NCBI RefSeq assembly: GCF_011320225.1
Contig: NZ_JAAOEN010000002.1
Coordinates: 62,001 to 126,000, forward strand
Length of the DNA: 64,000 nucleotides
Reading direction: 5' to 3'
DNA from: Phytoactinopolyspora limicola
GTDB lineage: Bacteria; Actinomycetota; Actinomycetes; Jiangellales; Jiangellaceae
The position numbers were made by a program, and so were the translations under genes. The notes under the pieces are model-generated. The model was not told the origin of the DNA, did not search any database, and saw only the letters and a list, made by a program, of their open reading frames with translations. Of the stretch, positions 9,224-63,988 are shown in pieces. Within the stretch, counting starts at the first letter, position 1. Each line of letters begins with the position of its first letter.

Positions 9224-9521
9224 TTGTGCACCTGATCGTCGTTTGTGCGCCTGATCGTTTCCGCGGCAGCGATCAGGTGTGCCAACCAGCAGCGACGCAG
9301 ACCCGTTGTGCATCTGATCGCTTCTCACAGTCTGGACGCGCGACGATCAGATGCAGATCTAGCCTTTCAGCACCGACTTGTGCATCTGATCGTCGCGCAT
9401 CCGGATACTGAGATGGGGATTGGCGCACATTGATGCACCCGACCAGCCCCCTACCGACGTTTACCTACCCTAATCGCCGCCGCGTAAGCGATCAGGTGCA
9501 CAAACGGAGATCAGGTGCACA
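9224..9521. repeat. Cluster of eight TGCAYCTGATCG-type short repeats
   Basis: The gene-free gap 9222-9660 holds eight copies of a 12-16 base motif (TTGTGCAYCTGATCG). Four point forward (9224, 9243, 9306, 9379) and four are inverted (9267, 9341, 9487, 9508). Neighbouring opposite copies, such as 9306 and 9341, can pair into hairpins. The same motif forms a second cluster at 63811-63988. I see no gene here; the few short reading frames are made of the repeats themselves. Confidence 0.85.
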
Positions 9522-9660
9522 AGGTGGGTGATGACACTCACCCACCTCGTCCGACGGCGCATCAACACATCGTGCGACGCGTTGATAGACCGCACCTGCG
9601 TCAGATCTGTCGAACTCCTTGGCGCCGTCCCCGAGACGCCACGCGCCAGAGCCCACCCAA

Positions 9661-23606: not shown

Positions 23607-23674
23607 CCCCTCCGGTGATCATTGGCTTTTGACTACCGAATTCGGTAGTCAAAAGCCAATGATCACCGGAGGGG
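23607..23674. repeat. Perfect 68-bp palindrome with no spacer
   Basis: Bases 23607-23674 are a perfect palindrome, 34 bases per arm, with GAATTC at the centre. The left arm begins CCCCTCCGGTGATCATTGG and the right arm mirrors every base. There is no loop, so as RNA or single strand it gives one long hairpin. It overlaps the broken end of a Nudix remnant, whose last codons come from the palindrome itself. Confidence 0.95.
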
Positions 23675-51070: not shown

Positions 51071-51130
51071 CCCCATGATCATGAACACTTTGCCGTGTTA
51101 TGACACGGCAAAGTGTTCATGATCATGGGG
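51071..51130. repeat. 60-bp palindrome (copy 1 of a two-copy element)
   Basis: Arms of 30 bases meet at 51100/51101 with one mismatched pair (51099/51102). The left arm starts CCCCATGATCATGAACACTT. It lies 15 bases upstream of the luciferase-like gene's start codon and 12 bases after the sulfotransferase stop. The same element recurs at 57311-57380 with one changed base in the centre and longer arms. Confidence 0.95.
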
Positions 51131-55580: not shown

Positions 55581-57296
55581 TCAAACCGCGAGGAACGAGC
55601 GCAACCGTTCCAAGGGCCAGGTGTTGATCACGTCGGCACCGGTCAGCCATCCGCGCCGGGCCATGCCGACGCCATACCGCACGTAAGGAAGATGGATCGT
55701 GGAGTGGGCATCGCTGTTGATAGCGAACTTCACGCCGTGGCGTCGGGCCCGGAGGATGTGTTCGTCGTGGAGGTCGAGCCGATCGGGATGTGAGTTGATC
55801 TCCAGGGCGGTACCGGTACGGGCACACGCCGCGAAGACGGCGTCGAGATCGGCGTCGATGGGGGCGCGCCGGCCGATCTTGCGTCCGGTGAGGTGTCCGA
55901 TGATATGGACGTGGGGGTTCTCGCAGGCCCGGATGAGCCGTCGTGTCATGTCGTCGGAGGACTGGGTGAAGTGGGAATGGACGGACGCCACGCAGACGTC
56001 GAATCCGGCCAGGAACTCCGCCGGCCAGTCCACCTCGCCGTCGGGACCGATATTGAGTTCGGTCCCGTGTAACACGCGCATGCCCGAGTAGGCGCCGTCG
56101 AGGGCGTGCGCCCGCGTCCGTTGGGCGAGCATCTTCTCGTCGGACATCCGCTGCATGTACAGGTCCGGGGCGTGGTCGGTGATCGCGTAGTACTCGTAGC
56201 CTCGGGCGGCGGCCGTGGCGACCATGTCCTCGGCGCTGGCCTGCCCATCCGTCAGGTTCGTGTGTGTATGTAGGTCGCCGCGGAGCGCGTCGGCGGCGAT
56301 CACGTCCGGAAGGTCGCCGCGCAGCGCCGCCTCGATCTCACCGCGATCCTCGCGTAACTCGGGTGGGATCCATGGCAGGCCGAGGCGCTCGTAGACCTCG
56401 GCCTCGGTCTCCGACACCAGAAGCTCACCCGTCCCGGCGTCGAACAGCCCGTACTCGGACAGCTTCAGGCCGGCCCGAACCGCCAGTTCACGGATCCGCA
56501 CGTTGTGCGCGGCGGAGCCAGTGAAGTACTGCATCGCCGCACCCCACGCCGCCAGCGGCACGACCCGCAGATCGACGTGGACCCCGGCGACGGTGCGGAC
56601 CGAGGTCTTCGTCTCACCGCGGGCGACCACCTCGGCAACGTCCGGTTGCGCCACGAGCGCCTCCATGAGCGGCGCGGACCGGTCGGCGGCGGCGAGGATG
56701 TCGACGTCCCCAATGGTTTCGCGCATCCGGCGCAAGGATCCCGCGTAGGCGCAGCGTTGACACCCGTCCACCGTGGCGATCGTGGCGACCAGCCGGCGGG
56801 CGAGTTCCTCGGCGACGTGGAGCTTGCTGCGGCCGCCGGTGGAACGTAGCAGGTCGATACCGTGCAGGAGTTTGGCCTCGCTCTTCTCGCCGAGCCCTTT
56901 GAGCTCACGCAGCTGCCCGGCCTGGATGGCGGCGGCGAGGTCGTCGATCGACGAGATCCCCAGCTCCCGGTAGAGCTGGAGGGCACGTTTGGGGCCGAGT
57001 CCGGGGACGGCGGTCAGCCGCCGCACCCCGTCCGGGATGCCGGCCCGGAGTTCCTCGATCGCCGCGACCCTACCCGTGGTCATGTATTCGACGATCTTGG
57101 CGGCGATCGAGCGCCCGACGCCGGGGATACGTTCGACGCCACGCTGATCGAGGTCGGCGACGTTGTCGTGGAAGCCGGCGACGGCGCGCGCCGCCTTCTC
57201 GTAGACCCTCGCCTTGAAGGCGTCACCTCCGGTGATGGAAATGAGGTCGGCGTATTCGAAGAGCAGGTCGGCGACGTCGTCATTGGGACGGGCCAT
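55581..57296 (-). CDS. polX: DNA polymerase X family protein with PHP phosphatase domain
   Basis: A 571-residue repair enzyme. Residues about 1-150 have helix-hairpin-helix segments (GVERIPGVGRSIAAKIVEYM, LTAVPGLGPKRALQLYRELG). The palm has the nucleotidyl-transfer pair in YAGSLRRMRETIGDVDILAA (about 187). The C-terminal PHP domain (about 340-571) has its metal ligands: DLHTHTNLTDG, AITDHAP, HSHFTQSS, HIIGHL, EINSHPDRLDLHDEH and NSDAHS. It fills gaps and trims ends during repair. It starts 14 bases from the long palindrome. Confidence 0.94.
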   Translation of the reverse strand: MARPNDDVADLLFEYADLISITGGDAFKARVYEKAARAVAGFHDNVADLDQRGVERIPGVGRSIAAKIVEYMTTGRVAAIEELRAGIPDGVRRLTAVPGLGPKRALQLYRELGISSIDDLAAAIQAGQLRELKGLGEKSEAKLLHGIDLLRSTGGRSKLHVAEELARRLVATIATVDGCQRCAYAGSLRRMRETIGDVDILAAADRSAPLMEALVAQPDVAEVVARGETKTSVRTVAGVHVDLRVVPLAAWGAAMQYFTGSAAHNVRIRELAVRAGLKLSEYGLFDAGTGELLVSETEAEVYERLGLPWIPPELREDRGEIEAALRGDLPDVIAADALRGDLHTHTNLTDGQASAEDMVATAAARGYEYYAITDHAPDLYMQRMSDEKMLAQRTRAHALDGAYSGMRVLHGTELNIGPDGEVDWPAEFLAGFDVCVASVHSHFTQSSDDMTRRLIRACENPHVHIIGHLTGRKIGRRAPIDADLDAVFAACARTGTALEINSHPDRLDLHDEHILRARRHGVKFAINSDAHSTIHLPYVRYGVGMARRGWLTGADVINTWPLERLRSFLAV

Positions 57297-57310
57297 GAGC
57301 GGCGATTCTA

Positions 57311-57380
57311 CTTGTCCCCATGATCATGAACACTTTGCCGTGTCATGACACGGCAAAGTGTTCATGATCATGGGGACAAG
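57311..57380. repeat. Perfect 70-bp palindrome (copy 2 of a two-copy element)
   Basis: Bases 57311-57380 are perfectly palindromic with no spacer, 35 bases per arm; the left arm starts CTTGTCCCCATGATCATG. It lies between the divergent polX and fuconate-operon genes, 14 bases upstream of the polX start codon. The inner 60 bases match the copy at 51071-51130 except for one base. A convergent-gene terminator role is ruled out here because the neighbours diverge. Confidence 0.97.
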
Positions 57381-57422
57381 GGGGTGTGGGGCCGAGGTGG
57401 ACACCGGCAGCCCGGTTCGGAT

Positions 57423-57455
57423 ATACATCGGATGTCTGCTAAACATCCGATGTAT
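57423..57455. promoter_or_regulatory. Double ACATCSGATGT operator of the fuconate operon
   Basis: ATACATCGGATGT (57423-57435) and ACATCCGATGTAT (57443-57455) are exact inverted arms 7 bases apart, and each contains an 11-base palindrome ACATC-S-GATGT. They lie 34 bases upstream of the fuconate dehydratase start. A single variant copy (AGATCCGATGT) sits at the promoter of the GntR gene at 60958, which identifies the likely regulator. Confidence 0.82.
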
Positions 57456-57489: not shown

Positions 57490-58812
57490 GTGACTGAAGC
57501 CGAGGCGACGATCGTCGCGCTGGAGACCTCGGACATCCGGTTTCCCACCTCCGTGGACCTCGACGGGTCCGACGCGATGAACCGCGATCCCGACTACTCC
57601 GCCGCCTACGTCGTCGTCCACACCAGCGCCGGCGACGCCCACGAGGGGCACGGCTTCGCCTTCACCATCGGACGCGGCAACGACGTCCAAGTAGCCGCGA
57701 TCGACGCGTTACGCCCACACGTCGTCGGCCGCCCGCTCCAGGCCACCCTCGACCACCTTGGCGACTTCTACCGCGACCTCGTCCACGATTCTCAGCTGCG
57801 CTGGCTCGGCCCCGAGAAAGGCGTGCTGCACATGGCGATCTCCGCCGTGGTCAACGCCATGTGGGATCTCAAGGCCAAACGCGAGGGTAAGCCGCTGTGG
57901 CGGCTGCTCGCCGACCTCTCCCCCGAGCAGGTCGTCGAGCTGGTCGATTTCCGCTACCTGACCGACGCGCTCACCCCGGACGAGGCCCTCGCCATCCTCA
58001 AACGAGCCGAAGCGGGCAAAGCCGAACGCGCGGCACAACTCCTCGAGCAGGGATACCCGGCTTACACCACGTCTCCGGGCTGGCTCGGCTACGACGACGA
58101 GAAGCTCACCCGGTTGTGCAAAGAGGCCGTCCGCGACGGCTTCGACCAGATCAAACTCAAGGTCGGCGCCGATCTCGACGACGACCGGCGACGGCTGCAA
58201 CTGGCCCGCGACGTATGTGGACCCGACATTCGCATCGCCATCGACGCCAACCAGCGCTGGGACGTCGGCACCGCCATCAGCTGGATCAAGGAGCTCGCAC
58301 CGGCCGACCCCTGGTGGGTGGAAGAACCAACGAGCCCCGACGACGTGCTCGGGCACGCCGCTATCGCCCGCGCCGTCGCTCCGGTCCGCGTCGCCACCGG
58401 CGAACACGTCGCCAACCGGGTCGTGTTCAAGCAGCTGCTGCAGGCCGAGGCGATCTCTTTCCTGCAGCTCGACGCTGCCCGCGTGGCCGGCGTGAACGAG
58501 AACATCGCCATCTTGCTGCTCGCCGCCAAGTTCGACATACCGGTGTGCCCACATGCCGGCGGGGTCGGGTTGTGCGAGCTGGTCCAGCATCTGTCCATGT
58601 TCGACTTCGTCGCGGTCAGCGGATCGCTGGAGCGACGCACTATCGAGTACATCGATCACCTGCACGAACACTTCGCCGATCCGGTCGTGATCCAGTCCGG
58701 CCGCTACGTCGCCCCCACGGCACCCGGCTTCAGCTCGACCATGAAAGCCGAGTCCCGCACTCGCCACACCTACCCGGATGGGCCGGTGTGGACAACGTTC
58801 CAGGGCGGCTGA
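57490..58812 (+). CDS. L-fuconate dehydratase (enolase superfamily)
   Basis: A 440-residue enolase-superfamily enzyme with family-specific stretches [40 protein letters not shown], and the catalytic set: Lys in [12 protein letters not shown] (about 220), metal ligands [22 protein letters not shown] and ATGEH, and His in [15 protein letters not shown] (about 354). It dehydrates L-fuconate to 2-keto-3-deoxy-fuconate. The GTG at 57490 follows GGAGG. It leads an operon with a mutarotase and an aldo-keto reductase. Related sugar-acid dehydratases are the alternative, but the match looks close. Confidence 0.9.
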
Positions 58813-60258: not shown

Positions 60259-60936
60259 TCAGGGCGCCAACGCGTGGTGCAACCATCGCTCGACCCCAGA
60301 GATGTGCACCGTCATCCATGACTGCGCCAACTCGGGCTGGTGCTGGGCCAGGGCATCGTAGATGGCCTGATGTTCGTTGAGGGTGCGCTCACCGGCGCCC
60401 TGCTCGGTTAATCCGCGCCAAACCCGGGCCCGTTGCGTCGGCGCCGACAATCCGTCCACCAACGACGCCAACACCAGGTTTCCCGACGCTTGAGCCACGA
60501 TCCGGTGGAACTCGATGTCGCTGGCGACAAGATCCTCCACCGGTGCCTCTGGATCGATGTCGTCGAGCAGCTTACGCAGCTGAGAAAGCTCACCGTCGCT
60601 GATCCGGACCGCCGCCATAGCCGCCCCCGCGGGCTCCATGATCCGTCGGACCTCGAAGAACTGGAGGACGGAATCGTCGCTGTGGAAGTCCACGACGAAG
60701 TTCAGCGCCTCCAGCAGCAGCGGCGACTCCAGGCTGGTCACATAGGTGCCGTCGCCCTGCCGCACGTCCAAGATGTTGATCAGCGCTAGCGCCCGCACGG
60801 CCTCGCGCAACGAGTTCCGGGCCAGGCCCAGCCGCGCGGCAAGGTCAGCCTCACGGGGGAGTCGGTCGCCAGGCGCCAACTCCCCGCTGACGATCATCTC
60901 CTTGATCCTGAGGATCGCCTCGTCAGTGACGGCCAT
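60259..60936 (-). CDS. GntR family regulator (FCD type) of the fuconate operon
   Basis: A 225-residue regulator: winged helix at about 5-70 (ILRIKEMIVSGELAPGDRLP, LAARLGLARNSLREAVRALA, QGDGTYVTSLESPLLLEALN) and an FCD domain (EVRRIMEPAGAAMAAVRISD, SDIEFHRIVAQASGNLVLAS, with metal-binding Asp and His). It is convergent with the aldo-keto reductase gene. Its promoter carries one copy of the motif found twice upstream of the fuconate dehydratase gene, so it should repress both and be released by a sugar acid. Confidence 0.9.
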   Translation of the reverse strand: MAVTDEAILRIKEMIVSGELAPGDRLPREADLAARLGLARNSLREAVRALALINILDVRQGDGTYVTSLESPLLLEALNFVVDFHSDDSVLQFFEVRRIMEPAGAAMAAVRISDGELSQLRKLLDDIDPEAPVEDLVASDIEFHRIVAQASGNLVLASLVDGLSAPTQRARVWRGLTEQGAGERTLNEHQAIYDALAQHQPELAQSWMTVHISGVERWLHHALAP

Positions 60937-60957
60937 ACCGCGCCTGCCTTCTACCAG

Positions 60958-60968
60958 AGATCCGATGT
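60958..60968. promoter_or_regulatory. AGATCCGATGT, single operator of the GntR gene
   Basis: One copy of the ACATCSGATGT motif (one mismatch), 21 bases upstream of the GntR start codon. The bases beyond it (ATTCGG) do not extend the arm. It implies weak autoregulation compared with the double site at 57423-57455. Confidence 0.65.
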
Positions 60969-61030
60969 ATTCGGTTCGCTCAAGTATGCCAGCGTACGAG
61001 GAGCACCGCACCGATCACGGCTTTATGCCA

Positions 61031-61105
61031 CTGAACCGCCCGGCCCTGAACCGCCCGGCCCTGAACCGCCCGGCCCTGAACCGCCCGGCCCTGAACCGCC
61101 CGGCC
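61031..61105. repeat. Five exact tandem copies of a 15-bp unit
   Basis: CTGAACCGCCCGGCC is repeated five times in a row, with a sixth part copy. It lies in the 191-base gap between the GntR promoter and the stop of the luciferase-like gene. A short frame through it would encode LNRPA repeats, but it has no plausible start or ribosome-binding site. Variable copy number between strains is likely. Confidence 0.9.
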
Positions 61106-61127
61106 CTGACCGGAGCCGGAATCGTCG

Positions 61128-62096
61128 TCAGCGGCCGCTGAGCGACGCGACGACCGGGGCGAAATCCTCCATGAGGGCGTCGGGGACGATGTAGTAGGAG
61201 AAGCCGAACCGCGCTCGACGATCATGCATCCGCTCTGCGATGTGTTCGATCGGCCCGAGAAACACCGGAGGCATATCCAACACCTCCGGGACAGCCGCCT
61301 CAGGCCACCCGTGTGCCTCCGTGTACCGCAGCGCCGCCTCCGCCACGTCGTCGGCGATCACCGGCGAGACCACCATGGACAGCTCCACGTCGCCGAACCG
61401 CCGGCCGGCACCCTCGCGAATCGCCGCGACCTTGCCGGCTATCGTCTCCGCCGTGCGTTCGGACAGCTCCTCGGAGATGGTGCCCTCGGCGAGGGCCCGC
61501 GGCAACACACCCACCGTGTCGGCCTCCCGCCCGGCCAACCGCAGCATCCGCCGGCTTCCCGCGCCGATCTGAATCGGTGGATGTGGGCGCTGGTGGGGTG
61601 TTGGGAAGGTGGACAGCGACGTGATCGTGTACTGCTTTCCGTCGAAGTCCAGCGGCTCCCCGCTGAGCATCCCCTTAAGGACCAGCAACGACTCTTCCAA
61701 CCGGTCCACCCGCCGGCCGGCCGGATCGAACGGCATCCCGGCCCGGTCGTACTCCTCGCGCAGCCAGCCAGCACCCAGTCCCAGCTCGAACCGGCCGCCC
61801 GACAGCACGTCGAGGGTGGCCACCTCCTTGGCCAGCATGACCGGGTGCCGGTAGTCGTTGGCCAGCACCACCGTGCCGACCCGCAGCGTGCGGGTGGCCA
61901 GTGCCGCCGCCGTCAACGCCACCATGGGAGCCAGCTGATCCCCGAACGGCTCTCGGATGAAATGGTCGCGCAGCAGGAACGTGCTGTAGCCGAGTTCCTC
62001 GGCCCGGCGCGCAGTACCGGTCAGCGCCTCCGTCGTCGTTGCGCGCTCGCCGAGCACACCAAATCGGAACGGACGGATCGTCGTCGGGGTGGTCAT
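61128..62096 (-). CDS. Luciferase-like F420/flavin-dependent oxidoreductase
   Basis: A 322-residue TIM-barrel protein: FRFGVLGERATTTEALTGTA, LRDHFIREPFGDQLAPMVAL, LRVGTVVLANDYRHPVMLAK (about residue 70), RFELGLGAGWLREEYDRAGM and PHPPIQIGAGSRRMLRLAGR. These are typical of F420-dependent members. An ATG pair allows a start at 62102 or 62096. It is divergent from the racemase gene; the substrate is unknown. Confidence 0.87.
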   Translation of the reverse strand: MTTPTTIRPFRFGVLGERATTTEALTGTARRAEELGYSTFLLRDHFIREPFGDQLAPMVALTAAALATRTLRVGTVVLANDYRHPVMLAKEVATLDVLSGGRFELGLGAGWLREEYDRAGMPFDPAGRRVDRLEESLLVLKGMLSGEPLDFDGKQYTITSLSTFPTPHQRPHPPIQIGAGSRRMLRLAGREADTVGVLPRALAEGTISEELSERTAETIAGKVAAIREGAGRRFGDVELSMVVSPVIADDVAEAALRYTEAHGWPEAAVPEVLDMPPVFLGPIEHIAERMHDRRARFGFSYYIVPDALMEDFAPVVASLSGR

Positions 62097-62213
62097 AACC
62101 ACGACGCTAGCCGCCCCGTATCCTCAGCACTGGCGGAAGACGGACATGACGTTGCCGGCAGTGCCGCCGAGCCGGCTCGCGCACCACTCGCGCCCTTTTG
62201 AATGGGAGCCTCC

Positions 62214-63786: not shown

Positions 63787-63810
63787 CCCACCAGCCTACC
63801 CACCCCTGGT

Positions 63811-63988
63811 GTGCACCTGATCGTCGTTTTGTCATCTGATCGTCTTTATGGCGACGATCAGATGCATCGATGGCGGCGACGGGGTGTGTCGACGGGCGGT
63901 AGTGGCCTCTGATCGCCGCCACGATACGGGACGCTTGGCGATCAGATGCGCGAACCGACGGCTGACGTCCGGTGGTGCATCTGATCGT
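63811..63988. repeat. Second cluster of TGCAYCTGATCG-type repeats
   Basis: The last 214 bases have no gene but at least six copies of the motif: forward at 63811, 63831, 63903 and 63974, inverted at 63851 and 63937. ATCTGATCGTC and GACGATCAGAT (63833-63862) pair into an 11-bp stem with an 8-base loop. The cluster is cut by the window edge. Confidence 0.85.

Follow-up and report, generated by a model that had tools for sequence, protein, structure and literature searches.

In bacteria a long perfect palindrome is not expected to last, being either cut or lost, and an exact palindrome of 70 bp in the genome of Phytoactinopolyspora limicola, located between polX and a divergent operon, raises the question of where it came from and how its two halves stay identical. 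The analysis covered a window of 64,000 nucleotides (to which positions refer unless a contig is named), the source genome (G000; 6.59 Mb, 40 contigs) and related genomes, with one genome compared per species. The explanation that we favour, with somewhat more confidence than doubt, is that the palindrome belongs to REP-like hairpins of gene 3' ends that work without a RAYT, their arms being homogenised by hairpin-templated copying and tolerated in the absence of SbcCD.

The palindrome and its gene setting

The palindrome is exact and spacerless, as the earlier note had claimed, with 35 of 35 positions paired (35 + 35), and a chance origin of such an arm (order 4^-35 per site) is out of question. 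It is the longest of the window, followed by a family B palindrome (34 + 34) that adjoins a convergent gene end; no other spacerless palindrome with arms of at least 10 bp was found in the whole window. The predicted RNA hairpin has a folding energy of -75 kcal/mol (z-score -11.3). No T-tailed terminator was detected at this position, a U-tract being absent after the stem, and tRNA alone matched the Rfam models at gathering score in the whole window, the repeat being without match.

A second copy in the window (copy 1) has a core that differs from that of the polX copy by one base, as previously stated, at the 24th pair, and a shorter paired outer flank. It lies between tandem minus-strand genes, each 12-15 bp away, and no TGATCA-bounded element was present in the G004 sequence read between the genes flanking it. 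To describe its mismatch as a pending compensating change gives a fair picture, but there is nothing special in it, pair 24 being unpaired in 14 of 36 copies.

Table 1. Positions of the genes, repeats and minor features considered
Feature	Position	Strand	Remarks
polX	55581-57296	-	DNA polymerase beta-type; Pol-beta thumb, HHH and PHP domains
TAGAAT, candidate -10 box of a leaderless polX promoter	57305-57310	-	abuts the palindrome
Family A copy 2 (polX copy)	57311-57380		core TGATCA...TGATCA at 57321-57370; on each side the flank is paired for 10 bp
First gene of divergent operon	57490-58812	+	enolase superfamily (MR_MLE) enzyme
Family A copy 1	51071-51130		60 bp, single central mismatch (pair 24)
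Family B perfect palindrome	23607-23674		68 bp; core TGATCATTGGC...GCCAATGATCA at 23616-23665
Inverted repeat ATACATCGGATGT...ACATCCGATGTAT	57419-57455		precedes the MR_MLE operon and is conserved in G004; may serve as operator for the GntR/FCD regulator (60259-61011)
Perfect 15-bp tandem repeat (CTGAACCGCCCGGCC)	61031-61109		between ORFs 60259-61011 and 61128-62102
Clusters of another TGATC repeat (TGTGCACCTGATCG... / CGATCAGGTGCACAA)	9224-9522; 63810-63960		several copies in either direction within 300 bp; probably another branch of TGATC-type repeats
Nested 118-bp inverted repeats	G000:C12 26480, 365145, 407063, 503385, 662089; G004:C9 near 65763 and 74940		
Near-perfect palindrome (TGATCATGTAAACCATG...)	G001:C2 174453-174538		86 bp, TGATCA-bounded, different arms; host genome has SbcCD and zero family A copies; related copy in P. 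halotolerans (L262 near 7739)
Palindrome family without TGATC ends (CACTCCGCTACCGCCAGATGG...)	G000:C12 333827-333898, 325636-325703, 697760-697833		

Domain matches confirmed the gene setting, i.e. a position between divergent polX and an operon starting with an enolase-superfamily gene (Table 1). The “fuconate” label given to this operon fits its domain content; it also encodes an aldo/keto reductase, and a GntR/FCD regulator gene follows in convergent orientation. The palindrome lies upstream of polX, 14 bp from the start codon. A sigma-70 scan gave no promoter above threshold near polX; a TAGAAT box ends 8 nt before the polX ATG and has a counterpart in Phytoactinopolyspora halotolerans (G003; TAGACT, 9 nt before the ATG), which suggests a leaderless polX promoter with the palindrome directly upstream. 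G003 was assigned to this species by its polX region, identical to that of the record bearing the name.

In P. halotolerans, the only genus relative retaining polX, polX is directly preceded by a GntR gene of like orientation, and the palindrome is absent from the 57 bp that separate the aligned stretches. G004 lacks polX, and the next genes are those of the divergent operon; at this place G002 has neither polX nor the operon. The arrangement of neighbours thus differs in these three genomes, and the polX copy lies at a rearranged junction. Its location in a divergent gap, a minority class, is atypical. According to the earlier note, its reading would be refuted if every relative had this element at this site and the arms had drifted without pairing; for the polX copy that is not what was found.

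Repeat families and their location relative to genes

A search for the repeat in the P. limicola genome returned at least 40 places, and the repeat amounts genome-wide to about 180 copies in two main families (A and B), mostly at gene 3' ends. Family A was counted in whole genomes with an exact outer-arm pattern (TGATCATGAACA-N14..32-TGTTCATGATCA), which misses diverged copies: 91 copies were found in P. limicola, 34 in G002, 99 in P. halotolerans, 43 in G004, 119 in G021 (another genus of the same family), 1 in G007, and none in G001 or in any of 372 genomes of Actinomycetia outside the family. A reversed control pattern gave 0 matches. Family B (TGATCATTGGC-N-GCCAATGATCA) has 91 copies in P. 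limicola, 20 in G004 and 7 in G001. These counts were made in addition to a census of 853 kb of the 6.59 Mb of P. limicola; the regions of the relatives were chosen partly for holding family A copies, whereas the whole-genome pattern counts are unbiased.

The family A unit runs from TGATCA to TGATCA as an inverted repeat of 49-50 bp (50-bp core), with no spacer in P. limicola. Its outer arms (TGATCATGAACA) are near-invariant and its inner arms species-specific; in P. limicola the CCCA before and the TGGG after TGATCA are also conserved, the flanks further out being copy-specific. Neither solo nor separated arms of A or B were found in 853 kb of P. limicola, and an autonomous parent element was rejected on this ground. 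The census contained further families bounded by TGATC[A/G] (TGATCGTTGCC, TGATCATGTGC, TGATCGAAGTC), some of them enclosed in inverted repeats of 118 bp, each arm of which has two TGATCG/A motifs 33 bp (about three helical turns) apart, around a 52-bp palindrome; these nested repeats look like repeated protein-binding sites. At least one perfect palindrome (C12:333827, 72 bp) belongs to a family without TGATC ends, and the tendency is thus shared by more than one repeat. Among the papers returned by literature searches, none describes the family A/B repeat.

Gene positions were taken from a simple, home-made codon-based gene caller. The distance from element to gene 3' end was at most 30 bp in 134 of 168 cases (about 80%), against 16% expected for random intergenic placement, and the terminal TGA of TGATCA is the exact stop codon of the neighbouring gene in 51 of 138 copies. 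Of the 64 copies between tandem genes, 55 are closer to the 3' end of the upstream gene. In P. limicola the copies are in excess in convergent gaps (29/66 vs 85/475; Fisher p 7e-6) and scarce in divergent ones (6/66 vs 131/475).

Location and predicted fold make a two-way 3'-end hairpin the likely role of the repeat. The polX palindrome is one copy of a dispersed, REP-like, TGATC-bounded family. Its RNA hairpin, which has no U-tract, would act as a 3'-end element, whether by terminating transcription in both directions, as an insulator or by stabilising RNA, and copies would be kept at 3' ends because the hairpin acts there; the polX copy would separate upstream transcription from the polX promoter. 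Two features count against this explanation: the polX copy, in its divergent gap, is a poor fit to a pure terminator, and the stem has no U-tract.

Perfect cores, paired flanks and SbcCD

Perfect spacerless cores make up 19 of 36 family A and 28 of 41 family B copies in P. limicola. In the relatives no family A core is perfect (0/64; G002 0/19, P. halotolerans 0/29, G004 0/12, G021 0/4), and family B has 3/18 in G004 and 0/7 in G001. Central pair 23 is complementary in 28/36 copies of P. limicola, 0/19 of G002 and 0/27 of P. halotolerans; for pair 24 the values are 22/36, 6/19 and 0/27. Spacerless palindromes with arms of at least 24 bp number 20 in 734 kb of P. limicola contig C12, and none was found in contiguous regions of six other genomes of the family, 760 kb in all (G004, 180 kb; P. 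halotolerans, 80 kb; G002, 80 kb; G001, 60 kb; G010, taken to be Jiangella, 180 kb; G005, 180 kb), the 60 kb of G001 holding one with 20-bp arms. Perfection of the palindromes is lineage-specific.

Pairing also continues beyond the core. In P. limicola the paired flank has a mean length of 8.2 bp for family A and 6.5 bp for family B, against 4.2 and 1.9 bp when right flanks were shuffled among copies, and 0 of 5000 shuffles reached the observed mean in either family; base composition was therefore rejected as the source of this pairing, shuffled flanks yielding about half of it or less. The longest pairing beyond the core extends over 26 bp of copy-specific sequence. Flank pairing is near the null in G002 and P. 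halotolerans and slightly above it in G004 (3.3 vs 1.6, n=12), where three perfect B copies examined stop exactly at TGATCA, with 0 bp of pairing beyond. The check on arm variants proposed in the earlier note gave, within P. limicola, 30 changes present on both sides against 37 unpaired cells, most of which fall in two central pairs; both-side changes were also observed within P. halotolerans. The suggestion that pairing is actively maintained is upheld, arm variants being often paired and pairing extending into copy-specific flanks.

Template switching is known to create and maintain hairpins and to extend stems, leaving as footprints paired changes, matching loop changes and stem extension (PMC8794818). 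In P. limicola the arms have probably been equalised by copying, most likely through hairpin-templated template switching in replication; this copying would have passed from the repeat into the unique flanks and across the centre, so that hairpins of unrelated families, once imperfect, would have become perfect palindromes.

Paired changes could equally result from selection for stem stability. An explanation by selection on RNA hairpins alone, in which two-way terminators keep their stems by stepwise compensatory substitutions and copying is unnecessary, agrees with the strong 3'-end bias, with the enrichment in convergent gaps and with the unrelated inverted repeats that G004 has at the syntenic 419455 and 398815 sites, as if hairpins had been swapped. 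We nevertheless judge it unlikely: copy-specific pairing up to 26 bp past the core goes beyond any plausible need for stem stability, the innermost pairs, of little value for RNA stability, are mostly paired in P. limicola, and perfection affects unrelated families mainly in this one species, its relatives tolerating imperfect stems.

With less confidence, the favoured explanation extends to the persistence of such palindromes. In vitro, SbcCD cuts the hairpins that palindromes form once they exceed a limit of 20-36 bp (PMC4245961). The SbcD profile (TIGR00619) scored above cut-off in G001, G002, P. halotolerans, G005, G006 and G021; in P. limicola and G004 it gave only the weak hit of a paralogue, which G002 and P. 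halotolerans have additionally, and SbcC divided the genomes in the same way. With the sbcCD DNA of P. halotolerans as query, homologous DNA was found in G001 and G002 and none in P. limicola or G004. The A-rich relatives G002, P. halotolerans and G021 thus retain sbcCD, and the nearest relative, G004, lacks both genes. The exact mirror halves in P. limicola are possibly owed to the loss of this hairpin-cutting enzyme, without which palindromes may persist. Such a loss would permit perfection and not cause it alone. It is not sufficient, because G004 has the same loss and yet its family A copies keep mismatched centres (0/12 perfect), and since no two genomes are closer in the compared regions than P. 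limicola and G004, it may be one event, the correlation resting on one lineage; for both reasons only a permissive role is proposed. Jiangella, considered as a second SbcD-negative case, was uninformative: the genome taken as such (G010) is SbcD-negative, carries no A or B copies and has no long spacerless palindromes in 180 kb. A farther-reaching version, that SbcCD loss let hairpin-templated copying act on about two hundred repeats and that perfect palindromes now spread outwards, rewriting the unique DNA beside them and with it the final codons of adjoining genes, is put forward only tentatively.

Shared and empty sites and relation to known repeats

Seven orthologous repeat sites are common to two species (P. 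limicola/G004 two, G002/P. halotolerans three, G002/G004 one, G004/G021 one). Their outer 14+14 bp differ at 0-4 positions and their inner parts by 3-15 edits, and at six of the seven sites each inner part resembles some other copy of its genome more than it resembles its orthologue. The median inner distance is 3 within P. limicola and 8-13 to other species; for G004 it is 5 and 11-13. This pattern of distances indicates that inner arms at fixed sites undergo concerted evolution. Several sites are empty in relatives: 139 bp separate the anchors at C12:509876 in P. limicola and 25 bp in G004, and the corresponding distances at C12:512789 are 129 bp and 15 bp in G001. No target-site duplication is visible at empty sites, where the flanks are too diverged for one to be read. 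TGATCA itself was rejected as such a duplication, empty sites being without CCCATGATCATGGG and the CCCA/TGGG outside TGATCA being itself conserved in family A.

“Recent arrival”, as suggested in the earlier note, agrees with the absence of the polX copy in P. halotolerans and with the empty sites; it does not apply to the family, which predates the genus and has seven shared sites. Mobility with clean target edges was not demonstrated, neither a target-site duplication nor a mobilising enzyme having been found. Mobile miniature elements, inserted by a transposase recognising TGATCATGAACA and perfect because they are recent copies of perfect masters, would account for about 90 near-identical copies in each of A and B, for the empty sites, for the lack of solo arms in 853 kb and for inner arms near the species consensus at shared sites. 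This explanation is improbable in our view: a recent perfect master does not explain copy-specific palindromic flanks, the shared sites imply that many copies are old, no target duplication was seen, and a Y1 (RAYT/IS200) transposase was found in 0 of 22 genomes of the family, although a DDE transposase may be involved. RAYT/IS200-type mobilisation was rejected on the same search (PF01797), which in a control found the domain in 5 of 14 named genomes, as was a mobiliser gene inside copy clusters, the intervening genes, read by eye, appearing to be ordinary metabolic or transport genes.

Insertion of the element into the centre of an existing terminator, with the paired flanks as remains of the old stem, would account for both copy-specific paired flanks and 3'-end location; it is very improbable, given that empty sites (496159, 509876, 512789) show no inverted repeat formed from those flanks and that the three perfect B copies of G004 have no paired flank. 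An assembly or library artefact is scarcely credible: fold-back amplification is known to produce perfect inverted repeats, but about 180 copies lie over many contigs with unique DNA on both sides of each examined copy, related copies occupy the same sites in independently sequenced species, and perfection is confined to certain repeat families.

ERIC, YPAL and other MITE-like repeats are dispersed and palindromic and prefer intergenic 3' positions, as A and B do; their sequences are not known to be related to these, and no transposon terminal repeats were identified in A/B. Like intrinsic terminators, the A/B repeats form strong hairpins shortly after stop codons and would serve both directions between convergent genes; unlike them, they lack a U-tract, are conserved in sequence across loci and have much longer stems than usual. 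A/B repeats also resemble REP/REPIN sequences with their RAYT (PMC3116915, PMC3733652), which are likewise short, high-copy extragenic inverted repeats. A genome has several families of them, placed for the most part between genes in tandem or convergent order, and their GTAG termini often supply the stop codon of flanking ORFs (PMC3733652), as does the TGA of A/B repeats. The differences are the tag at the stem foot (GTAG/CGTC in REP/REPIN, TGATC[A/G] in the A/B families examined), the absence of a Y1 transposase in the 22 family genomes and, in P. limicola, arms that abut without spacer and pairing that enters copy-specific flanks. For template-switch hairpins and quasi-palindrome correction (PMC8794818, PMC7202029), multiple simultaneous paired changes, stem extension and matching loop changes are expected; these processes have been described for RNA genes and reporter loci, and would act here on many copies of several families in one genome.

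The A/B repeats form a REP-like system without RAYT. With 20 long spacerless palindromes in 734 kb and sbcCD missing, the P. limicola genome represents a natural experiment on the effect of SbcCD on genome content, and its copy-specific paired flanks form a readable record of apparent arm-copying events, usually studied only in reporters.

A minor observation concerns two proteins of P. halotolerans (L278 3165-3815 and 7759-8751) whose frame ends inside an element. At their C-termini, beside the hairpin, stand short-period repeats (tails such as PSPSPSPSP and PSRSRSRSR), as if replication had slipped there.
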